61,490 nt of DNA, taken from Methanocellales archaeon (lineage in GTDB: Archaea; Halobacteriota; UBA148; JAUWXC01). The position numbers and the translations under genes were made by a program. The stretch covers positions 1-61,490 of the forward strand of contig JASEEY010000007.1 of the NCBI GenBank assembly GCA_030018435.1, written 5' to 3'. This document shows, piece by piece, positions 26,806-61,040 of the stretch. The notes below the pieces were generated by a model. That model did not search any database. It saw only the letters and a list, made by a program, of their open reading frames with translations, and was not told the DNA's origin. Within the stretch, counting starts at the first letter, position 1. Each line of letters opens with the position of its first letter.

Positions 26806-27075
26806 ATGATTAGCTCTAGCACGCTAAAATCAATCAGCCTGGACAAGGATAAAGAAGACGTGGTAGTCTATATCACAGAAAGGTGTCCGAGATGTGAGCG
26901 GTTGAAGCGCTCGTTAGAGTCAGATGGGGTGCATTATAAAGAGGTGGATATGACCACTCCTGCAGCACTCGCTGAACTGAGGGCAAATGGTGTATTCACC
27001 ACATCTGCGCCAGTGCTGAAGATCGGGGAGCGATTCCTCACATCCAAGGAGTTGTTTGGCGAAAAGAGGGGTTAG
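26806..27075 (+). CDS. Glutaredoxin/NrdH-like redox protein
   Basis: An 89-residue thioredoxin-fold protein. VVYITERCPRCERLKRSLE carries the CPRC redox pair, and TTSAPVLKIGERF supplies the cis-Pro region. It directly precedes nrdD, so it probably delivers electrons for ribonucleotide reduction. NrdD in many organisms uses formate, but archaeal and some bacterial types use thioredoxin-family donors. The gene end overlaps or abuts the nrdD start. Confidence 0.88.
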   Translation: MISSSTLKSISLDKDKEDVVVYITERCPRCERLKRSLESDGVHYKEVDMTTPAALAELRANGVFTTSAPVLKIGERFLTSKELFGEKRG

Positions 27076-27076
27076 A

Positions 27077-30000
27077 TTGAGCTCAGATATAAACGTGATC
27101 CAGAAAACACTTGAGGGTGCAGAAGCGCCCACAATGCCCAAGATCAGGACATCGGATGGGCACATCTTAGATTGGGACAGGGAGGCCATCGTCAGACAGT
27201 TGCTGAGGGAGACAAAACTCAGCGAGGAATTTTACGGCATCCCGCCTATCGATGAGGGAACAGCCAGAGAAGTGGCAAAGAAGGCGGAGAAGCGCATCAG
27301 GTCGATGGGGGTAAAATACCTCTCTGGCCCCCTCGTAAGGGAAATCGTAAACGTCATCCTATTGGAAGACTACCACCAGGAATGGCGGAACATTGCCACA
27401 AGGGTTGGCACGCCGGTATACGATGCCCATATGATAGATATAGGAAACGGATTCGAAGCGAATGAGAATGCGAACCTGCAGGACAATGCCGAAACTTCGC
27501 ACAAGAAGAAGGCGGATAAGATTTCAAAAGAGCAGTACCTGTTATTGCTGCCCCCGCACATATCCGATGCATATCTGAATGGAGACATTCACATACACGA
27601 TTTGGAGTACCTTGGAACACGCGGTTTTTGCCAAGATTGGGACCTGCGGTACTTCTTTTATTATGGATTGATGCCGGACGGCTCCGGTACGAAGGCAAGC
27701 GTTGCAGGTCCGGCAAAGAAGGCGGAGGTTGCAATACTGCATGCTGTGAAGGCGTTAGGCAGCGCGCAAACGAACTTTGCAGGAGGGCAAGGGTTCTACA
27801 ACTTCCTTACGTTCCTCGCCCCCTATTTTGAAGGGCTTTCGTATGAGGAGATAGAGCAATTGATGCAGATGTTCGTCTATGAAATGACGCAGATGATGGT
27901 GGCCAGGGGAGGACAAATCGTCTTCAGTTCTGTGCAGCTAACCCCAGGAGTTCCCAGGATATGGAAGGATAAGCCAGTGGTATACAAGGGAAAAGTATGG
28001 AACGGTGAACAGGCGCTACTCAGAACGTACGCCGAGTTCGAGAGGGAGGTTCGGCTGGCGTTTAAAGCGCTGATGAACGTCATGCTGAAGGGGGATTACT
28101 GGGGCAAGCCGTTCAACTTTCCCAAGCCTGAGATTTCCATCGAGCCCGATTTTATGACTGAGGACGAGGAGTTTAACAGAGCCCATCCAGAGTTGCCGAC
28201 CTATGATGAATTGTATGATCTTGCGTTCGAGCTGGCGGCGAAATACGGCTCGCCGTACTTCGATAATCAACTGCCGGAGTACAGGGGCGCCGGAAAAGGT
28301 ATTTCCTGTTATCAATGCTTGGGCAAAGACGAGTTGATACCACTTGTTCAAAACGATGAGATGAAGGTCAAGAAAATTAGTGAGCTATTTGATGATGCAG
28401 CTAAAAATGGTAAGGATGTCGATCCAAACGGCGTTGAATTCGTAGAGCTCAATGGCAGCACGCCGACTGTCAATTTTGAAACACTCGAGGCGCCAATAAG
28501 AGGGTTCAAAGGAGTTATGCGCCAGATGTATAGGGGCAAATTATTAAATATCATACTGGAATCGGGGCGGCGCATAAAGGTCACACCAGACCACCCGGTG
28601 TTTGTGCTCAAAAATGGCGTGTTTACTAAAAAACAGGCAAGAGAGCTTGATATAGGAGACTACATGCCAGTGTTGAAGAGCACAAACTATGAACTGCCAG
28701 CGATCACGTCGATAGATGTTGAAAAAACGTTAAACGATGCAGGATATTCCAAGGAGATTATAGTAAATGAGGGAGAGGTAAACATCAAGCATTCCAAAAA
28801 ACCGGGTTTGCCCAAAAACATTCCGGTCACGGAAGAGCTGGCCAGATTCCTTGGATATTATCTGGCAGAAGGGTGCAGTGACCATAGTGGCAGAAGACAT
28901 ACTGTCCGCCTTTCCTTTGGCAAGCATGAGTCTGAGCTGATCGAAGATGCAGTAAGATGCATTCGAAAGATCGGAATCAAGCCAAAAATCTCGGAAGAAA
29001 AAACGGCTATAAACGTAGTAGTGAACAGTAAATTGTTATACTTATTGATCGATGCATTGGGATGCGGTCATGATGCCCCCAATAAATCCGTGCCAGATCT
29101 TTTGTTCAATGTGGAGCGCGAGTTAGTAGGACCTTACCTAAACTGCGCGTTCAATGGAGATGGAAACATCGATGTTCAAATTAACAGAAGAGGGGCGTAT
29201 GACATTCATGCAAATGGGCTTCGACTGAAAATAATTTCAAGAGACGCTGTGCAGAAGTTAGTTTGGCTGGCACACAGGATTGGCGCACAAATGAACTATT
29301 ACGAGCGCAAACAAACGGTTAAGCATCCACAAACCGGCGACGCGTACGGGCTTACGTCCTATATAGCACGAGTCACATCGCAGGATCAAATTAAGAACTT
29401 CAGCAAGCAGACTGGTTATGGACAAATCGCAATTGTAGATGGTGGAAGAGAGGTTGGGGGATCATTTACCAGAATTCCACTAGAAGAGACGGGGTTGGAG
29501 TACTCCGACCTAAAATATCCCAGTCAATACAGGTCGTCTGGCCATAAGAAGGTAAACAAATCACTGATAGTTGATGGTTCGCATGTACCCATCGTTGAGA
29601 AATTGATTGGTGGAGATGTACATGTCCTCCCAGTTAAGAGGATCGAAGAGGTAGATTATGATGGTTACGTCTACGATCTCGTGGACGTATCGCATACGCA
29701 TAATTTCAGCAACGCCTTAGGGGTAATAACGGGAAACTGTTGCGCCTACCAATTCTCCTCTACGGCTGAGGATGACGAGGACTTCGAGAGAAAACTGCAG
29801 TTCCAAGATGGCAAACATTTCTCCATGGGCGCATGGCAGGTCGTCTCGGTCAACTGTCCCAGGGCGGCGTATAGGGCAGAATATGATGATGAGAGACTGT
29901 TCGGCGAGCTGAAGCGATTGATGGATGTAGCCGTCGAACTCTTCAAGATCAAGAAAAAGTGGATGGACATCATAACCAAGAACAACAGGATGCCATTCGT

Positions 30001-30769
30001 TATACAGCGCCCAAAGGATCCCTTAACAGGCAAGAAGGGTGATGCAGCGGTTTACACAGATGATCTTGTTTACACGATCGGCGTCGTTGGAATAAATGAG
30101 ATGGTTCAACATCACATAGGTGCACAGCTGCACGAATCCCAAGAAGCGTTCAAACTCGCAATAAGAGCGATGACCGAGATGGAGTTCTATGCCAGAGAAC
30201 TAAGTGAAAGACACGACATGAAGATCGCGCTAGCCAGAACGCCTGCTGAAACTACCGCGCAAAGATTTGCTGTAGCCGATCTCTTGCACAGCGATTTTGC
30301 AACCTTTGCCGAAAAGGTCATCAAAGGCGATGTAAAGATGGCAAAAGCCCTCGCGAAAGGGACGAGAGACCTGCCAATTTACTACACCAACGGCACACAT
30401 GTATTTCCAGGTGCAAACATCTCGCTCGTCGACAGGATTGACATCGAACACGCGTTCTTCCCCATTGTGGATGGTGGAAATATCCTGCACATATTTATGG
30501 GCGAATCTACCCCGGATCCAAGAGGTTTAAAGGAGTTCGCCATGAATATCGCAAAGAACACGCAGGCTGGCTATTTTGCGTTCACAAGGGACATGACCCT
30601 CTGTATGGACGATTTCCACGTCGAGGCTGGTTTACATGATATATGCAGTAACTGCGAGTCGGACAACGTCGAGCACCTGTCACGCGTAACAGGTTACATC
30701 CAAGCCGTATCAGGGTGGAACGCTGCCAAGAAGCAGGAGTTGAAGGATAGGGTGAGATATGGGATTTAG
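27077..30769 (+). CDS. nrdD: Anaerobic ribonucleoside-triphosphate reductase with intein
   Basis: Class III RNR, which makes dNTPs by glycyl-radical chemistry without oxygen. It has an N-terminal ATP-cone (~15-100) and a 10-stranded barrel with active-site cysteines. The C-terminal glycyl-radical region is RVTGYIQAVSGWNAAK, preceded by a partial zinc site (CSNC). The host sequence GISCYQ|CCAYQFSS is interrupted by a 474-residue intein (28316-29737); spliced length is about 756 residues. TTG 27077 has GAGG 7 nt upstream; TTG 27056 is also possible and would overlap the glutaredoxin gene. nrdG lies 1.6 kb further on, separated by accessory genes. Confidence 0.95.
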   Translation: MSSDINVIQKTLEGAEAPTMPKIRTSDGHILDWDREAIVRQLLRETKLSEEFYGIPPIDEGTAREVAKKAEKRIRSMGVKYLSGPLVREIVNVILLEDYHQEWRNIATRVGTPVYDAHMIDIGNGFEANENANLQDNAETSHKKKADKISKEQYLLLLPPHISDAYLNGDIHIHDLEYLGTRGFCQDWDLRYFFYYGLMPDGSGTKASVAGPAKKAEVAILHAVKALGSAQTNFAGGQGFYNFLTFLAPYFEGLSYEEIEQLMQMFVYEMTQMMVARGGQIVFSSVQLTPGVPRIWKDKPVVYKGKVWNGEQALLRTYAEFEREVRLAFKALMNVMLKGDYWGKPFNFPKPEISIEPDFMTEDEEFNRAHPELPTYDELYDLAFELAAKYGSPYFDNQLPEYRGAGKGISCYQCLGKDELIPLVQNDEMKVKKISELFDDAAKNGKDVDPNGVEFVELNGSTPTVNFETLEAPIRGFKGVMRQMYRGKLLNIILESGRRIKVTPDHPVFVLKNGVFTKKQARELDIGDYMPVLKSTNYELPAITSIDVEKTLNDAGYSKEIIVNEGEVNIKHSKKPGLPKNIPVTEELARFLGYYLAEGCSDHSGRRHTVRLSFGKHESELIEDAVRCIRKIGIKPKISEEKTAINVVVNSKLLYLLIDALGCGHDAPNKSVPDLLFNVERELVGPYLNCAFNGDGNIDVQINRRGAYDIHANGLRLKIISRDAVQKLVWLAHRIGAQMNYYERKQTVKHPQTGDAYGLTSYIARVTSQDQIKNFSKQTGYGQIAIVDGGREVGGSFTRIPLEETGLEYSDLKYPSQYRSSGHKKVNKSLIVDGSHVPIVEKLIGGDVHVLPVKRIEEVDYDGYVYDLVDVSHTHNFSNALGVITGNCCAYQFSSTAEDDEDFERKLQFQDGKHFSMGAWQVVSVNCPRAAYRAEYDDERLFGELKRLMDVAVELFKIKKKWMDIITKNNRMPFVIQRPKDPLTGKKGDAAVYTDDLVYTIGVVGINEMVQHHIGAQLHESQEAFKLAIRAMTEMEFYARELSERHDMKIALARTPAETTAQRFAVADLLHSDFATFAEKVIKGDVKMAKALAKGTRDLPIYYTNGTHVFPGANISLVDRIDIEHAFFPIVDGGNILHIFMGESTPDPRGLKEFAMNIAKNTQAGYFAFTRDMTLCMDDFHVEAGLHDICSNCESDNVEHLSRVTGYIQAVSGWNAAKKQELKDRVRYGI
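28316..29737 (+). mobile_element. LAGLIDADG intein in NrdD
   Basis: Splicing block A is CLGKDELIPLVQ at the N-terminus with Cys1. Block B is TPDHPVFV, holding the usual Thr-x-x-His. Two LAGLIDADG motifs, FLGYYLAEG and YLNCAFNGDGN, mark a homing endonuclease. Block F is YDLVDVSHTHNFSNALG. The last residues are ITGN followed by the +1 Cys of the host, so the penultimate His is Gly while the terminal Asn is kept. The insertion is beside an active-site cysteine pair of NrdD, a typical conserved-site choice. Confidence 0.93.
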
Positions 30770-30796: not shown

Positions 30797-31648
30797 TCAC
30801 AATATTCCCAGTCTATCCTCCACCCCTCTAAGCTCATCCTTCAACTTGTGCAGTTGCTCCACCTCCTCAAGAGTAATGAATCTAACATGCGGCTGAATCT
30901 CATGAAATGTCCCTTCTAGCAGCTGCCTAACCTTTTCCCGGTCCTCCTCCTTAGCGATAAGATAGAGCTTGCTATTCCACAAATCAAAGGCGTGCTTCAA
31001 CTTGCCCAAGCCCTCTGTCAGGTTCCCGCCTATTTGAATCTCGAAGACATAAGTTGGAGCTCCTCTATCCACTCTCCTCCACGTAACATCTAGCCTTTTA
31101 CCGTCCATCTGGTACTCCTTTTCTGCCACGAACTTCTGCAACCCGCCTATCAACAGGAGCTTTTCCTTCACGCTCTCGTGCAGGGATGGCTTATATTCTG
31201 CAGGAATTTTTCTCAAGGCAGAGCCCACGATGACTGGTTCCCTATATAGTTTATTCACATCTCCTATCAGCACCTCTGCGAGGTCGTCGCCTATCCTCTG
31301 AAACCCCGACCTGACGCGGTGTCTCAGATCGGGATGGATTATGCCCAATCTATTCCATTCCTCTCGACGGAATCTTAAGGTAATGTCGAATTGAAATCTC
31401 AAAGGCCATATAACTCTTCCTTTGGTGCGCTCCTCTGGCCATAACGGCTTATCCTGTTTGAATTTCGAGAGAATTTTGCCGTAACCTACAATCTTACTCA
31501 CGGGTGAGGTGACATAAAAGAAGACGATATCTCCGCTGGCTAACGCTTCCCATAGGTGAGCTTGATTCTGGCGCAAGCCCCAGATATTCCCTAAGTCAAA
31601 AGCCGTTTCCCAGTTCTCAGGTCTCCCTACAACCAGCCAAGAGGACAT
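30797..31648 (-). CDS. EVE-domain protein with PD-(D/E)xK-like nuclease domain
   Basis: About 283 residues. The N-terminal ~140 residues form a PUA-like EVE domain: SSWLVVGRPENWETAFDLGNIWG, ALASGDIVFFYVTSPVSKIVGYG and a later WPLRFQF. EVE domains read modified bases. The C-terminal ~130 residues carry LDVTW then TYVFEIQIGG (D187 and E203-x-Q205), followed by a helix and strand. That pattern fits a restriction-endonuclease fold with Q in place of K. I infer a modification-dependent nuclease. ATG 31648 best fits GGTGATGACG. It is transcribed against its nrd neighbours and separates nrdD from nrdG. Confidence 0.7.
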   Translation of the reverse strand: MSSWLVVGRPENWETAFDLGNIWGLRQNQAHLWEALASGDIVFFYVTSPVSKIVGYGKILSKFKQDKPLWPEERTKGRVIWPLRFQFDITLRFRREEWNRLGIIHPDLRHRVRSGFQRIGDDLAEVLIGDVNKLYREPVIVGSALRKIPAEYKPSLHESVKEKLLLIGGLQKFVAEKEYQMDGKRLDVTWRRVDRGAPTYVFEIQIGGNLTEGLGKLKHAFDLWNSKLYLIAKEEDREKVRQLLEGTFHEIQPHVRFITLEEVEQLHKLKDELRGVEDRLGIL

Positions 31649-31833
31649 CGTCATCACCAAAAGGAGATAATCGCTAATCATTAATATTTTTACCGTTCTG
31701 ACAGGGACGGAATAAACTGGGTGGCAAAGGCACGTATGAGGAATTATTAAGTATACTTGAAGAAGTAAGAAAGAGATTAAGCATCATAGGCTTAACAACG
31801 TGTAATTTAAAAAAAATAAAGGGGTGAAATAAA

Positions 31834-43681: not shown

Positions 43682-43822
43682 GATTACACCAATTCGTCTT
43701 TCATCCATTTTCGCAATCGCAATAATTAACCAACCTTATTAGCACTTTCGCAGTACTATCTTAATCTTATAATACTAAGTTGAGACTTAAATTAATGGTG
43801 TGTTTTAATCAGAGGGAAGTAG

Positions 43823-45133
43823 ATGTTTGAGATAAGAAATTATAGAACACGAGATCGTAACGCGGTGATCGCGCTTATTTCTGAACTGGAGAAATTTTAC
43901 CCCGATGTTAAAAGTTGGCTTCCCCAAAAAATAGACGGAATAGAACGGGGGAAATAGATTGCTTGGTTGCGGAGATCAACGAAGATATAGCTGGCGTCTC
44001 AATTTCGGCTCCAAAAAATAACAGAGTAGCCAAGTTAATGGTATTCTATCTGAAGGAGGTGTACAGGGGATCTGCAATTGGTCCACATTTATTACGTAAC
44101 ACAATTGAAAAATGGATAAAACAAAGAGTTGGAAGGACCATTGTAACGTTTGCATCCGATGAATTTGACCGTCTTGCACCATTTTTTTAAGAGATATGGT
44201 TTTTTGATAGACGGCATTTCTCCCCAAAGATATCGCTCCGACTTATATGAGATCGTTATGGGAAAAACCTTCCTTTACAAACGAATTTCCGATGAACAAT
44301 TTTCTGAGACAATTCGTAAATATTTGTTTGAACTCCGAGGATTTGAGATCGAAGAGAGTGAGGAGGGTGAGAGTGAATTTATAGCTAGATCAAAATATGG
44401 AGTGCTAGGTTTTTACAAGGAGAGACCAAAAGAGGAATACTTTGTCAAGATCGTTACTTCACCAAACGTCAGTCACGCTGACATAAAGGAGTTTGAGAGA
44501 GAGTTAGACAATTTAGGTATGCAGGGCTTATTTATCTCGTTTCATGGTCTGCCACAAAAAATCGAGCGAATAAACATGATAATTTTAGATGCATACGACA
44601 TAGAAACGCTGTTTTACCCACTCGAACTTATCAAGAGGGGGCGAAAAGCCATTATTTACTCCATCGAAAAAGAATATGCCGATGTTTTAATCCCACAACG
44701 TCAACAGACTGTACTGATCCCAGAGAAACTTTTGTTAAGAACCGACCACGTGTACTATAGGTGGCCAGATAGATACAGAGAACTCAGAAGAGGGGCGCCG
44801 ATCTTGTTTTATGTGTCAGGAGAGGATATACGGGGAGAGGCGAAATTAGTCGAGTATGAGGTTGAGAGCCCGGAAACTTTGTATGAAAAATATGAACGTC
44901 TTGGGGTTTACGGGTTAAGAGATCTCCAAAATATCGCGAAAGGCAAAGGGAGAGTGTTAGCCGTAAAATTTGATTGGTATACAGAATATCCTAAACCAGT
45001 CCCTTATGATAAGGTTAAAGAGATAATACCTAGGTTCAACCCCATAACCGCAAATAAGATAACCTATGACGATGTTATAAAAATCAGGGGATGGGGGGAG
45101 CGTGAGAGCGGTATTACTTTCGATAAAACCTAA
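43823..45133 (+). pseudogene. GNAT acetyltransferase-PUA-like fusion with two frameshifts
   Basis: Three reading frames join into one protein of 436 residues if one G is added to the G5 run at 43947-43951 and one T removed from the T7 run at 44182-44188. GAGGGAAG precedes ATG 43823. Residues 1-~150 are a GNAT fold (MFEIRNYRTRDRNAVIALIS, LMVFYLKEVYRGSAIGPHLL). A middle domain (~150-285) resembles Mrr-type nucleases in strand order but has no clear catalytic triad. The C-terminal ~140 residues look like an EVE/ASCH PUA-like domain (VYYRWPDRYRELRRGAPILF). Without correction the pieces end at TAG 43955 and TAA 44188. It may be a real pseudogene, phase-variable, or a sequencing artefact. Confidence 0.65.
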
Positions 45134-45557
45134 GTATGTAGAGAGAATCTTTTTTTCAAATAAAAGATATGAACTTAGAAGACAAAAACCAGGTTTTAAT
45201 GGTGGTACAACTATTTTGGTATATTCCACAAAACCAGATAGATATATTATTGGGCATTTCAAGTCTGTTGATGTAATTGAAGAAACGATAAAAGAGCTCT
45301 GGAATAAAGTGGAAGCGTATGCTGGCATGAACTATCAAGAATACAGAAATTACTTTAATGGAAACAAACTAGCGTATGCTATTAAAATTGCGGAGCCGGT
45401 CCTGTGGGGCACACAAATATCATTAGAAGATATAAGGTGTGCATACCCGGGCTATAACCCCCCTCAGACATATCATTATCTCGATAGGGATCACCCAGTC
45501 ATAAAAGTAATCAGACAAGTAGGTAAGGAGAATGGCGGAATTCCCTGCATAATCTAA
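45102..45557 (+). CDS. ASCH-domain protein
   Basis: 151 residues. The N-terminal half is a PUA-like ASCH domain: AVLLSIKPKYVERIFFSNKRYELRRQKP, then ILVYSTKPDRYIIGHFK. The basic patch and Glu-Leu-Arg-Arg match the family, which is thought to bind RNA or modified nucleotides. The start is GTG 45102, overlapping the upstream GNAT-PUA frame by 32 nt, so the two form one transcript. The C-terminal ~60 residues (YNPPQTYHYLDRDHPV) are not assigned. Confidence 0.75.
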   Translation: MRAVLLSIKPKYVERIFFSNKRYELRRQKPGFNGGTTILVYSTKPDRYIIGHFKSVDVIEETIKELWNKVEAYAGMNYQEYRNYFNGNKLAYAIKIAEPVLWGTQISLEDIRCAYPGYNPPQTYHYLDRDHPVIKVIRQVGKENGGIPCII

Positions 45558-45561
45558 CAAT

Positions 45562-46479
45562 CTACACCAAATTCCTCAATCCTGCTTCTTCTACTATTTC
45601 CAGCGCTTTCTTCCTTTCGTCACAACTCAAGCGCCTGTTGATCTCGGGATATTGATGAGCCTTATAATATGGCGTATACTGAAACATGAGATTAAACCTC
45701 ACGTTAGGCATATGCTTCGCAATCCACTGAACGATCGGCTTCGTACAGCATTCGAGATGGTTCGGTAGCACGAGATGTCTTACAATAACCTCCGCATCCT
45801 CGTGTGCTAACAGAAAGTTGCGTGTAGTAATGTCCCAGTAGTTGTTTACGTTTGAGTATTTTCTAGCGCACATATCGCTCCCATACCTGAAATCCGCCAA
45901 ATACACATCTATCACGCCACTCAACAACCCCATCGTCTCTCTGGAGCAGTACATGTTGGAATTCCAGACCATGGGCGTGTTTACGTTACATTTATCCATG
46001 ATTTGTAATATGGTATGCAAGTGCGGCGTTGGGTCGCCGCCAACGAAGTTTACATTTCTCGCGCCCTGATGTTTTCTCATACCTATGATCTCTGCCATTC
46101 TCTCCGGCAAAGCGGGCGTTCCTGAAGTTGGAGCAGTCGATATATCCCAGTTCTGGCAGTAGACACATGAAAAGGTGCAACCTGTGAAAAAAATCGTGTG
46201 CGATGGCACAAGCTCGGGCTCCTCGCCATAATGCATAAACTCCGAGGCATAACGAGAGATTGCTTCAACACCACAGTATCCGATTTCGTGCTCCAGCCGG
46301 TTCACACCACAGCGACGTTCGCAGAAATGGCAGTTTCGCAATATTTCATTTGCGTTCCCTATCTTTGTGCTTAGCGATGATGTCCGCTTTGTAAGCAGGT
46401 ATTTCGCTAAACACTTCTCGCTCAAAACGTCAAAGTACCTCTCCAATCCCTGTACTGGCGATATATACAACATACGCAT
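45562..46479 (-). CDS. Radical SAM protein, PflX/COG1313 type
   Basis: About 305 residues. The cluster motif is CTFSCVYCQNWDIS. An extra Cys-rich region precedes it (CHFCERRCGVNR, then GYCG), as in PflA-like activators with auxiliary sites. FVGGDPTPHLHTIL is the GGE-like strand. COG1313 proteins are uncharacterised relatives of pyruvate-formate-lyase activases. The start is uncertain: ATG 46479 is natural, while a longer frame from 46500 is encoded by the dispersed repeat. It lies downstream of lonB on the same strand. Confidence 0.82.
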   Translation of the reverse strand: MRMLYISPVQGLERYFDVLSEKCLAKYLLTKRTSSLSTKIGNANEILRNCHFCERRCGVNRLEHEIGYCGVEAISRYASEFMHYGEEPELVPSHTIFFTGCTFSCVYCQNWDISTAPTSGTPALPERMAEIIGMRKHQGARNVNFVGGDPTPHLHTILQIMDKCNVNTPMVWNSNMYCSRETMGLLSGVIDVYLADFRYGSDMCARKYSNVNNYWDITTRNFLLAHEDAEVIVRHLVLPNHLECCTKPIVQWIAKHMPNVRFNLMFQYTPYYKAHQYPEINRRLSCDERKKALEIVEEAGLRNLV

Positions 46480-57444: not shown

Positions 57445-57944
57445 CGGTCTCTACTCATTTGCTCTGCTTCCTCTAGAACCCTGTCGTAAACCGTGATGTC
57501 AATTCTAAAGCCAGAGTCAATCAATTTTTTAAGCAGAACTTTAAATTCACTGAGATCGATTACCCCTTTCTTTAAAGCCTCCAAAAGAACCCCTAACGTT
57601 CCAGTAAAATTAAGTCCGAGGAATTCGGCGGCAATTCTCGCTCTCTTGTCATCCACGATTGTCAAATCAGCTTTTCTCTCAAGGGCTAAAAGCAGTGCAT
57701 GTTCTTCGCCTTTATGGATGTTCAAATCGCTTAAATTTTTGTCGTGTATGTGAATCTCTTCGATTTTTATAAACCCTCTCTTGAGAAAATCGGTGATCTC
57801 TTCAGGAAAATCTGCTTTCTTTGCTACGATCTCTTTAAAAGCAGTCTCTGGTATGTGAATTTCTCCATAAAATGATTTAAGCAGGTCAAGCCTTTTTATC
57901 TTCAAGAGAAAAATTAATGGGGAGGCATTGGATACTACTAGCAC
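57441..57944 (-). CDS. DUF3368 PIN-like toxin
   Basis: 167-residue PIN-fold protein of the DUF3368 type. VVSNASPLIFLLKIKRLDLL opens the domain, HKGEEHALLLALE supplies the central acidic residue, and LTIVDDKRARIAA the third. The last ~40 residues are extra helices. It is probably an RNase toxin. It overlaps the antitoxin stop by 7 nt. Confidence 0.85.
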   Translation of the reverse strand: MLVVSNASPLIFLLKIKRLDLLKSFYGEIHIPETAFKEIVAKKADFPEEITDFLKRGFIKIEEIHIHDKNLSDLNIHKGEEHALLLALERKADLTIVDDKRARIAAEFLGLNFTGTLGVLLEALKKGVIDLSEFKVLLKKLIDSGFRIDITVYDRVLEEAEQMSRDR

Positions 57945-58252
57945 TTTTTAATCCTCTTCAGATCCTTTTCAAGTTCCTGCAGGTCGTAGTTTATGGTTAT
58001 CCCCTTTGAGGATAGAATTTCAATCATTTCCCACAGATTACGCCCCGCTATCTCTGCTGCTTTCCACAGGGAAACTTTACCCTCTTTGTATAGGTCCAAC
58101 GCGTGATCAACCTTGTATTCCTGCAAGGCTTTGTGAATGAGTTTTCTGATAAAGGTTGCCTTGTCTAGGTGCTCTTTTTTTGTGAACTCTTCTATTTCTT
58201 TCACGTCCTCAGGGAAGAGGCGCGTGGATACGGTTATGGCTTTAGTCGTCAT
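57938..58252 (-). CDS. UPF0175-type antitoxin
   Basis: About 104 residues. An N-terminal ribbon-helix-helix-like part (ITVSTRLFPEDVKEIEEFTK) and the UPF0175 HTH (LYKEGKVSLWKAAEIAGRNLWEMIEILSSKG) are visible. It is the partner of the DUF3368 toxin, with typical antitoxin-first order. ATG 58252 chosen; GTG 58261 is also in frame. Confidence 0.82.
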   Translation of the reverse strand: MTTKAITVSTRLFPEDVKEIEEFTKKEHLDKATFIRKLIHKALQEYKVDHALDLYKEGKVSLWKAAEIAGRNLWEMIEILSSKGITINYDLQELEKDLKRIKKC

Positions 58253-58343
58253 TTTTATCACGTCTGCATTTTAATTAAATGTAAACATCTTATTTAAGAC
58301 TTTTGATAAGAGAAATTTAGAAAAAAATTCTGCAAAACGTATT

Positions 58344-58457
58344 TTATTCCCAAGATTCCCTCTCCTTATTGAGGTATTCCTCGGCGACGATGTCTTTTCA
58401 GACCTCCTTGTGTAGCCCTTTCATCATATCAACCAGGCGAGTTAGTGCCTTTTTCAT
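58344..58457 (-). pseudogene. Decayed antitoxin fragment with in-frame stop
   Basis: Minus strand: MKKALTRLVDMMKGLHKEV, stop (TGA at 58400-58398), then KDIVAEEYLNKERESWE and TAA. Changing TGA to TGG restores the V-W-K expected in archaeal VapB-like antitoxin tails of the GxHxEVWKD type, as far as I recall the family. No matching toxin lies next to it. A relic of a further TA pair is the likeliest reading. Confidence 0.45.
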
Positions 58458-58528
58458 CACAATCTTCTCATCTTGATGTCAACGATCATAGAAAAATTTA
58501 ACCGTGAAAATACGTGTTGGTGAGTGAT

Positions 58529-58861
58529 ATGGAATATAAATGCAAATGCGGCGGAGAATTGAAAAAATCGCATACTGAAGTTGAGTTTTACGGTATTGAC
58601 TTTGGGGTCAGAGAGTGCGAAATTTGTGATACATGCAAGACAGAATACCTTAGTGAGGATGTGATAGAGGAAATAGAAAAAGAGATCAAAAAGAGGGGGG
58701 TCTTTGCCTTAGAACGTTCTGTCCATGTCACAAAATCGGGAAACTCGCTCGTCCTAAGACTTCCTCCAGAGATCGTAAAATTCTTGGAAATTCATCATAA
58801 AAGCACGGTTAGATTATTTCCAACAGACAAACACAGATTAGAGGTGGAAGTATTAGAATAG
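58529..58861 (+). CDS. YgiT-type zinc finger/AbrB-fold DNA-binding protein
   Basis: 110 residues. The N-terminal zinc finger has CKCGG and CEICDTCKTEYLSEDV, like MqsA/YgiT antitoxins. The C-terminal half (VTKSGNSLVLRLPPEIVKFL) is a SpoVT/AbrB swapped-hairpin domain. ATG 58529 has GGTGAGTGAT upstream. No toxin gene adjoins it on the plus strand, so it is an orphan antitoxin or regulator. It is the only plus-strand gene of the island. Confidence 0.75.
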   Translation: MEYKCKCGGELKKSHTEVEFYGIDFGVRECEICDTCKTEYLSEDVIEEIEKEIKKRGVFALERSVHVTKSGNSLVLRLPPEIVKFLEIHHKSTVRLFPTDKHRLEVEVLE

Positions 58862-58869
58862 TTTCAATA

Positions 58870-59370
58870 CTACCGTTCAAGTTCATGTAGGATGCCGAGT
58901 AAGACTAAAAAATTAGGATCGCCAGACTTGAACAGCTTTTTTAACATGTGCTCTGCCTCATCACTGGCTACAAGATGTTTCTTAAACCCCCATAATGGGA
59001 GATAACAAACAGAAACACACCTAAGCCCGACCTTTGATGCTGTGCTAATTGCGAGTTTATCATCCAATAAAACCTCTGGTAAATCCAACTGAAGTGCCAG
59101 TGCAATAGCTGCACACTCGCCCATCCCCAACCGTTCCCTTCTAAGAAATGATCTAAAGTACTTCATTCCGATGTCATTCAGCTCTTTCCTCTCGATAAAC
59201 CCCTCTTGTTCCAAAAGATGTATTCGCTGAACGTGTCTTTTCGGCTTTTTATGTTCGTCAAAAACCTCGGTCGGAACATAAATTTTCGAGTATCTCTTCT
59301 TTGCGAGCGATATCAGACGTTCGTCTTTAGGCAAATCGATGATCACAGATGCGTCGGCGGAAGCTTTCAT
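58870..59370 (-). CDS. PIN-domain (DUF3368-like) toxin
   Basis: 166 residues. ADASVIIDLPKDERLISL carries the first acidic residue, MGECAAIALALQLD the second, and VLLDDKLAISTASKVGL the third. Downstream of its antitoxin by 2 bp. A second module of the same general family as 57441-58252 but strongly diverged. Confidence 0.82.
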   Translation of the reverse strand: MKASADASVIIDLPKDERLISLAKKRYSKIYVPTEVFDEHKKPKRHVQRIHLLEQEGFIERKELNDIGMKYFRSFLRRERLGMGECAAIALALQLDLPEVLLDDKLAISTASKVGLRCVSVCYLPLWGFKKHLVASDEAEHMLKKLFKSGDPNFLVLLGILHELER

Positions 59371-59372
59371 TC

Positions 59373-59690
59373 CTAAACCTCGACGTCAAACTCCTCAAGA
59401 AGTAACTTTTTTATGTTTCCGACATCTATTTTTCTGGATACTTCTTTGCTTTCGAGAAAATCGATGAAATCCAGTAGCGGTAACTTTGCGAGCTCTGCTG
59501 CTTTCTGGATAGATACGTCTCCTTTTTTATACAACTCCAATGCCAGTTCTTTTCTTTTCTCCTCGATTCCCATCTCGAAGATTTCTCTGATAATCATTGA
59601 TTTGCCCTTTCTCTCCAATTTCCCCAACTCATCAAGCTCTACCACAAAGTTTTTTGGGACCCTAAAGCCGACATACTCGGTTTTCGCCAT
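59373..59690 (-). CDS. UPF0175-type antitoxin
   Basis: 105 residues. RHH-like start (YVGFRVPKNFVVELDELGKLE) and UPF0175 HTH (LYKKGDVSIQKAAELAKLPLLDFIDFLESK). Pairs with the PIN toxin directly downstream. The shared LYK-GxVSxxKAAE pattern relates it to the antitoxin at 57938. Confidence 0.82.
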   Translation of the reverse strand: MAKTEYVGFRVPKNFVVELDELGKLERKGKSMIIREIFEMGIEEKRKELALELYKKGDVSIQKAAELAKLPLLDFIDFLESKEVSRKIDVGNIKKLLLEEFDVEV

Positions 59691-59754
59691 TTAAATCACA
59701 TGAAAACATTGTTGTCATATAATTTAAAACTATCGCCAAAAGTGTGATCCTCTT

Positions 59755-60024
59755 CTAAAACAACTTTGAAAAATCGTCGTAAACGTTTTTTCTATGTCCA
59801 ATAAACAGAACAACTACCCGTTGATTTTCCTTATCTACTTCATAAATTGCCCTATAATCGCCTATTCTTAGTATCCAAAAGTTAGAGTGTTTTAAACGTT
59901 TACCTCTTTCTCCTGGGAACTCTTCGAGTTTCTTAATTTTGTTTTTTATCCTCTCTCTTGTTTGCTTGTCCAGTTTTTCTAAAAATTCTTTTGCCTTCGG
60001 GTGAAGAAAAACCTTGAATTTCAT
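59755..60024 (-). CDS. relE: RelE/ParE-family toxin
   Basis: 89 residues: FKVFLHPKAKEFLEKLDKQ at the start, FPGERGKRLKHSNFWILRIGDYRAIYEVD and VVLFIGHRKNVYDDF at the end, the RelE fold. It is a ribosome-dependent mRNA interferase candidate. Start ATG overlaps the antitoxin stop (TGATG). Confidence 0.9.
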   Translation of the reverse strand: MKFKVFLHPKAKEFLEKLDKQTRERIKNKIKKLEEFPGERGKRLKHSNFWILRIGDYRAIYEVDKENQRVVVLFIGHRKNVYDDFSKLF

Positions 60025-60242
60025 CAAAGTTCCTCTAATGGAACTAGAATCTCCGGTTTTTCTCTTGCTTCTTCACTTCTTTCTACAAGCATCTTGTAAA
60101 ACTGGCGAGTCTTTTCTCTCTCCTCGTAGAAGGCTATTATGGTTTTAATGGCGTCACTTCTGCTTTTAAACCTGCCTTCGGCAACCCATCGATCTATTTC
60201 CTTAACGGTTTCATCTGGAACCCTTAATTGAACCTGGACCAT
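60024..60242 (-). CDS. Ribbon-helix-helix antitoxin
   Basis: 72 residues. VQVQLRVPDETVKEIDRWV and the turn KSRSDAIKTIIAFY form an RHH domain; the acidic tail would bind the toxin. ATG 60242 chosen among several in-frame starts up to GTG 60251. A perfect inverted repeat lies just upstream. Confidence 0.87.
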   Translation of the reverse strand: MVQVQLRVPDETVKEIDRWVAEGRFKSRSDAIKTIIAFYEEREKTRQFYKMLVERSEEAREKPEILVPLEEL

Positions 60243-60251
60243 TATCATCAC

Positions 60252-60273
60252 TTGTAAACATTATTGTTTACAA
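60252..60273. promoter_or_regulatory. Inverted repeat operator of the RHH/RelE module
   Basis: TTGTAAACA (60252-60260) and TGTTTACAA (60265-60273) form a perfect 9-bp inverted repeat with spacer TTAT, directly before the antitoxin start. It is a fitting site for autoregulation by the RHH dimer. Confidence 0.65.
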
Positions 60274-60374
60274 ATTACTTAAATGCTTTGCTTAGAGAAG
60301 GTGGATTTAGCTAAAACCAAGACACCTGCCCAAGTCTCATTTACTCTGTGATGATCCTAGACCCATCTGTGAGA

Positions 60375-60785
60375 TCAAAGAACATCGATAAGATCCCTGG
60401 TCTTCCAGACTTTTACCTCGTTTTGCCCCTTAAAGTGGTCGTCTTCGCTCCAGATTCCATCGTTCTCAAATGACATGGCTAATGCTAGGAAGGGTGTGTC
60501 ATTTTCGTCAATCTCAGCCATGATCTTCCACGCTTTGGGAATATATTCTGCAAAATCCTCTTTGGATACGATGGTGATGCGATCCATGATGGTGTACAGT
60601 AGAATGTAGAGCTCATCCTCACTAAGACCACTTCTATTGATGATCTCATCTTTGTGCCTCTTCAGCTCGCAGAATACGTAATCTGGTAAATACAATTCGA
60701 GTTCGGGGTTGAGCAAGAGTCTCCTTGTGGCTGAATTTCTGATGAGAGCGGCTATGATGATGTTGGTGTCGACGACCAACTTCAT
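60375..60785 (-). CDS. vapC: PIN-domain toxin VapC
   Basis: 136 residues. VVDTNIIIAALIRNS (first Asp), FCELKRHKDEI, ENDTPFLALAMSF (third acidic group) and GIWSEDDHF (fourth) are the PIN catalytic residues. It overlaps the antitoxin by 4 nt. Probable tRNA or mRNA endonuclease. Confidence 0.88.
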   Translation of the reverse strand: MKLVVDTNIIIAALIRNSATRRLLLNPELELYLPDYVFCELKRHKDEIINRSGLSEDELYILLYTIMDRITIVSKEDFAEYIPKAWKIMAEIDENDTPFLALAMSFENDGIWSEDDHFKGQNEVKVWKTRDLIDVL

Positions 60786-61012
60786 CTGATTAGCTCCCTG
60801 TAGTGCTTGAATATGGCTTTTTTGAGCTTATGATCTAACTCCTTCACATCCTCTTCGGTCAACTTGCTCTTCGCAACTATTTTGTCCATCAGCTCAAGTC
60901 TTCTCGCATAGTCCCACATCGCCCGCCTTGCTATTTCGCTCCACTTGACCTCGCTGTGCTGCTTCACGATGCGATGTAGCTCCTCTGGAATTGCAAGCGT
61001 TATATTAGCCAT
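60782..61012 (-). CDS. vapB: VapB-like antitoxin
   Basis: 76 residues: NITLAIPEELHRIVKQHSEVKW, the common archaeal VapB opening, then EIARRAMWDYARRLELMDK. ATG 61012 with GAGG 8 nt upstream is preferred to 61021. First gene of the VapBC operon. Confidence 0.85.
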   Translation of the reverse strand: MANITLAIPEELHRIVKQHSEVKWSEIARRAMWDYARRLELMDKIVAKSKLTEEDVKELDHKLKKAIFKHYRELIR

Positions 61013-61040
61013 CAGGATCACCTCTCCATAATATGTGAAT

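Follow-up and report, generated by a model that had tools for sequence, protein, structure and literature searches.

Studies have shown that fusions of a GNAT acetyltransferase with an EVE domain, often carrying an N-terminal PIN domain, nearly always occur with an ASCH gene and form a major class of putative toxin–antitoxin or defence modules; a subclass without the PIN domain has already been described, and by 2020 no module or domain of the class had been characterised experimentally (Bell et al. 2020, PMC7641849). In the literature that we searched, no later experimental test and no toxicity or defence assay of this class was found. The GNAT/ASCH pair is candidate PDC-M11 in PADLOC, whose candidate systems are mostly unvalidated (PMC12988326). 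In this study, we analysed such a pair in a stretch of 61,490 nucleotides (the window), which is a contig of a 1.02-Mb draft archaeal genome in 29 contigs, some of them shorter than 1 kb. The MCR alpha gene is absent from this genome, which is 95% complete, and the host is therefore not obviously a methanogen. The preliminary description of the locus had called the architecture of its large protein unusual. The combination of GNAT-EVE and ASCH is one already described; what is unusual is the inserted middle domain in a protein without an N-terminal PIN.

The large gene had been proposed to lie in three frames that are rejoined by opposite changes in a run of five G and a run of seven T. The sequence and the collinear homologue matches agree with this proposal and with its exact coordinates, and the interval 43823–45133 is a single gene spread over three frames (Table 1). 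Frame 1 runs from the ATG at 43823 to a TAG at 43955–43957 (44 codons), frame 2 ends at the TAA at 44188–44190, and frame 3 ends at the TAA at 45131–45133. The sequence flanking both breaks is well conserved, with no further stop.

Relatives were sought in 394 genomes of the phylum. Two of the proteins that the search found are intact, with 424 and 429 aa, and a third is truncated and lies close to a contig end; by comparison, the interval in the window measures 1,311 nt (436 aa). The genomes with relatives are Methanophagales CR_Bin_179 (L118), ANME-1 GoMg1 and Methanophagales SB_Co_68. Against the 424-aa protein of CR_Bin_179, the first piece matched residues 1–41 (41% identity, E 2e-10), the second matched residues 42–126 (42% identity, E 2e-22) and the third matched residues 122–423 (36% identity, E 6e-56), and the two genes share the position of the initiator methionine. 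Judged from these alignments, a collinear match of three pieces to one protein is far beyond chance. The fusion is real because the three pieces align collinearly to this one intact protein, and the doubt raised beforehand, that no homologue might join all the parts, is thus removed. The intact fused orthologues, which the preliminary description had suggested looking for beside an ASCH gene, were found in that position in these Methanophagales/ANME-1 archaea. The nearest relative of the large protein is only 36–42% identical to it, and no relative carried by a virus or phage was found in IMG/VR or in phage records.

Table 1. Features of the GNAT/ASCH locus in the window (positions are those of the window)
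Feature	Position	Strand	Evidence
Species-specific block, 1,850 bp	43714..45563		Similarity to the nucleotide sequences of G052, G059 and G077 stops at 43713 and starts again at 45564
Broken GNAT / Mrr-like / PUA-like gene	43823..45133	+	Three frames; all pieces match one intact protein
GNAT acetyltransferase domain (approximate limits; holds both breaks)	43823..44254	+	Pfam Acetyltransf_1 (middle piece); homologue
G5 run, site of the first frame change	43947..43951	+	Sequence; homologue alignment
T7 run, site of the second, opposite frame change	44182..44188	+	Sequence; homologue alignment
Mrr-like middle domain lacking the catalytic motif (limits approximate)	44255..44614	+	Profile comparison
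C-terminal PUA-like (ASCH/EVE) domain	44636..45091	+	hhalign; Foldseek of homologue model
Intact ASCH gene, 151 aa, GTG start, 32-nt overlap with the large gene	45102..45557	+	PADLOC PDC-M11B, E 1e-31; ZmASCH, E 6e-11

The three parts that had been read from the letters alone were not equally easy to recognise. The GNAT assignment was borne out, as the frame-2 piece by itself exceeds the Pfam cut-off for Acetyltransf_1. So was the PUA-like C-terminus, which hhalign matched to ASCH proteins at 97.7% and to the EVE domain of PIN-GNAT-EVE proteins at 96.1%. In a model of an intact homologue, the best Foldseek match of the C-terminus was the ASCH structure of Zymomonas mobilis (ZmASCH); the model had a pLDDT of 57, so that Foldseek matches were used for the two end domains only, and it was too weak for a fold match of the middle domain. 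A model of the ASCH protein by itself, with a pLDDT of 40, was set aside. When the PDB was searched, the sequence of the third-frame piece returned nothing and the middle-domain profile nothing credible.

For the middle domain, an Mrr_cat profile was built from 20 proteins of the phylum. The domain of the window and Methanophagales proteins scored 31% against it, in register; none of 100 shuffled controls attained this score, and unrelated profiles remained below 2%. The counterpart in Methanosarcina-type proteins (L006 and L128) scored 87.6%, and the two forms pooled scored 82.6%. Direct alignment between the two subfamilies gave no significant match, and their common origin is suggested because they occupy the same position and share the Mrr match. 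The earlier designation of this region as Mrr-like is thus weakly supported for the subfamily of the window and better supported for the Methanosarcina-type counterpart. The catalytic motif D...(E/Q)xK is present as D..EVK in the Methanosarcina-type proteins and missing in the window form and in its relatives L118 and L119. An active Mrr nuclease was rejected, since the catalytic motif is lost in this subfamily.

The ASCH gene that overlaps the 3' end of the large gene was absent from the preliminary description. Its product is homologous to ZmASCH (PDB 5gus/5guq), and in the cleft Tyr47, Thr49 and Gln127 of ZmASCH are identical, whereas Arg50, Lys53 and Ser128 are conservatively replaced. Single-strand RNase activity has been reported for ZmASCH (PMC5615036). 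In three Methanophagales genomes, a gene for a 292-aa protein lies 3' of the ASCH gene (7814–8692 in L118); it may be a third component, and it had no Pfam or PADLOC match.

The genes that flank the locus are common to three congeners (G052, G059 and G077), with near-complete synteny shown for G052. Because nucleotide similarity breaks at the same points in all three, the 1,850-bp block occurs in this genome only, among those compared. In G052 and G059, the same slot contains MazE-type, DUF4258 and MqsA/MazE-like genes; in G077, it contains MazE-type and PIN-like genes, both judged by eye. The homologous slot lies at 857117–858010 in G052, at 581–1474 in L092 and in L100. As these contents are toxin–antitoxin-like, the cassette sits in a toxin–antitoxin-like exchange slot. 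The G+C content is 40% in the large gene and 37% in the ASCH gene, against 46.8% in the whole window. The Methanophagales relatives differ in their surroundings: a type IIG restriction-modification gene precedes the large gene there, while no restriction-modification gene lies beside the locus of the window, where the slot is toxin–antitoxin-like. Since the intact relatives adjoin restriction-modification genes, the role of the pair may be restriction-related rather than that of a toxin–antitoxin system.

Other parts of the window contain genes of related kinds. A low-GC cluster of toxin–antitoxin-like genes occupies 57938–61021 and includes UPF0175, PIN_2, a ParE-like toxin paired with an RHH protein, and a MazE/zinc-finger gene; this last gene has a relative in the exchange slot, the MqsA-like gene. 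A second EVE-domain protein of 294 aa is encoded at 30797–31681 on the reverse strand (Pfam EVE, E 6.7e-7); its C-terminal half is nuclease-like by eye, and its region had no match in G052 and no PADLOC match. At 27056–30769 on the forward strand, an anaerobic ribonucleoside-triphosphate reductase gene carries an in-frame intein with splicing and LAGLIDADG domains, and this insert is missing in G052.

Phase variation, recent decay and sequencing error had all been offered as causes of the two breaks. The broken copy is either an accessory gene in ordinary decay or the result of an assembly error. In the latter case, the gene would be intact in the organism, both breaks would be consensus errors of the draft assembly, and the module would be functional. 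Both breaks lie in homopolymers and are opposite in sign, the sequence on either side is well conserved, and the genome is a draft with contigs below 1 kb. We nevertheless consider this possible rather than probable. In a survey of frame breaks against G052, which covered 672 kb of the 1.02 Mb and conserved genes only, 455 of 461 orthologues were intact and at most 6 were split. The intact orthologues contain 79 A/T runs of at least 7 and 410 G/C runs of at least 5, all comparable runs that stay in frame, as does a T7 run at 45150–45156 in the neighbouring ASCH gene. From this survey, the Poisson chance of two breaks in one 1.3-kb gene under random error is about 2 in 10,000. Because frame breaks are rare elsewhere and two fall in one gene, real decay is favoured over random error, and the data suggest that the large gene is truly broken. 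Of the three causes offered, recent decay thus fared best, and the same survey disfavours sequencing error. Phase variation was rejected: the runs are only 5 and 7 long, the intact relatives do not have the arrangement, and no copy with the other run state was found. In a wider form of this idea, slippage of the ribosome or the polymerase at the runs, or switching, would yield some full-length protein. Either run permits re-pairing after a slip of one base, and coding similarity is preserved on both sides of the breaks, but such runs are short for switching and two independent slips would be required, so that we hold this to be very unlikely. It is also very unlikely that the third frame (44150–45133) is used alone, as an Mrr-like/PUA-like protein that lacks the acetyltransferase and is paired with ASCH. 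This frame is open for 327 codons, within which a TTG and an ATG might serve as starts, and stand-alone EVE genes near restriction systems have been described (PMC7641849). Against it, no protein without the GNAT part was found among the relatives retrieved, and by eye there is no clear ribosome-binding site near the internal starts.

Taking these observations together, we are inclined, somewhat beyond even chances, to explain the locus as an acquired (PIN)-GNAT-EVE + ASCH cassette of the PIN-less form, in which the large gene is decaying and which in its intact state would carry out reader-guided acetylation restrained by ASCH. We propose that the two-gene cassette was acquired horizontally into the slot where related species keep toxin–antitoxin-like genes, and that two indels then inactivated the large gene, so that the acetyltransferase would no longer be made and ASCH would stay intact. 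In the intact relatives, the PUA-like domain would probably dock on a particular, possibly modified, nucleic acid, and the nuclease-like domain, being catalytically dead, may supply an extra contact. The GNAT domain would acetylate the docked target, an aminoacyl-tRNA or a base; the nucleoprotein target named in the preliminary description stays a mere proposal. The ASCH protein, translated from its overlapping start, may bind the same class of target and restrain the enzyme. We infer this guided acetylation of nucleic acid or aminoacyl-tRNA from the domains and the context.

In another arrangement of the same two proteins, GNAT would acetylate cytosine in nucleic acid and ASCH would remove the acetyl group. 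It draws on YqfB, an ASCH-domain amidohydrolase that acts on N4-acetylcytidine (PMC6972931), and on base acetylation, a proposal of Iyer et al. that is cited in PMC7641849. We give this writer-and-eraser reading hardly any credence. When the nucleophile Thr24 is placed with the motif that we take to be that of YqfB, the position holds a Glu in the ASCH protein of the window and in its relatives (a comparison of motifs rather than full alignments). The Thr-Lys-Glu triad is thereby broken, and YqfB-type deacetylation by ASCH was rejected on account of this replacement. The partner is related instead to the reported ribonuclease ZmASCH.

The preferred reading, a decaying enzyme beside a retained ASCH gene, has one parallel. 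In a Methanophagales genome (G283; L124, 1501–2147), the large gene has shrunk to a remnant of 60 codons directly 5' of an intact ASCH gene, so that the enzyme is lost and ASCH kept in two genomes, the window included. A pattern in which the partner outlasts the enzyme would be expected of a toxin–antitoxin pair, with only two cases at hand. If true, it would mark ASCH as the antidote.

Modules of GNAT-EVE and ASCH recur across bacteria, archaea and plasmids. For example, a Paenibacillus larvae plasmid has an acetyltransferase/ASCH pair with overlapping genes. On the Nostoc plasmid pCENA543c (L153, 450–2579), a gene encodes a 709-aa GNAT protein whose first GNAT gives way, by eye, to parts that resemble PIN, a second GNAT and EVE; genes for an ASCH relative and an AAA ATPase come next. 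G059 also has PIN-GNAT-EVE with ASCH, at another location. In Methanosarcina-type genomes, a related three-domain protein co-occurs with PIN-GNAT-EVE; it is fused to ASCH in L063 and L128, and it is divergently transcribed beside a PIN-GNAT-EVE/ASCH pair in L129 and L065. Tentatively, and with more doubt than confidence, we speculated that these proteins are a distinct archaeal GNAT/ASCH branch, in which an Mrr-like domain between GNAT and reader replaces the N-terminal PIN. As the forms of the window and of Methanophagales have lost the nuclease motif, acetylation would be their sole enzymatic activity, and the locus shared with PIN-GNAT-EVE in Methanosarcina-type archaea might combine a writer and a degrader. 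A form that lacks PIN and whose nuclease-like domain is dead suggests that acetylation is the effector step, and the locus adds a slot where the cassette alternates with toxin–antitoxin-like genes.

Compared with type II toxin–antitoxin systems, the pair of the window shares overlapping genes and the exchange of cassettes, seen here among four congeneric genomes, and its first gene is larger than usual. With the GNAT toxins of that type it has in common an acetyltransferase whose gene is overlapped by that of a small partner, in a slot that other toxin–antitoxin-like genes can occupy; in contrast, its partner is an ASCH rather than a ribbon-helix-helix protein, and its enzyme is multi-domain and a putative toxin. 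The Mrr-type restriction endonuclease domain (PF04471) resembles the middle domain in the order of secondary structure and in weak profile similarity. The large protein scores only weakly against PDC-M11A. The closest likeness is to the (PIN)-GNAT-EVE + ASCH class, which shares with the locus a fusion of GNAT with a C-terminal EVE/PUA-like domain (split in three frames in the copy of the window), an overlapping ASCH gene in the same operon and, less clearly, a mobile, defence-associated context. Unlike that class, the protein of the window and its relatives L118 and L119 begin with GNAT instead of PIN; the protein of the window has an additional middle domain of about 110 residues, and its C-terminal domain is equally close to ASCH and EVE. 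The broad system is known, whereas the PIN-less form with an Mrr-like middle domain appears to be a new variant of it.
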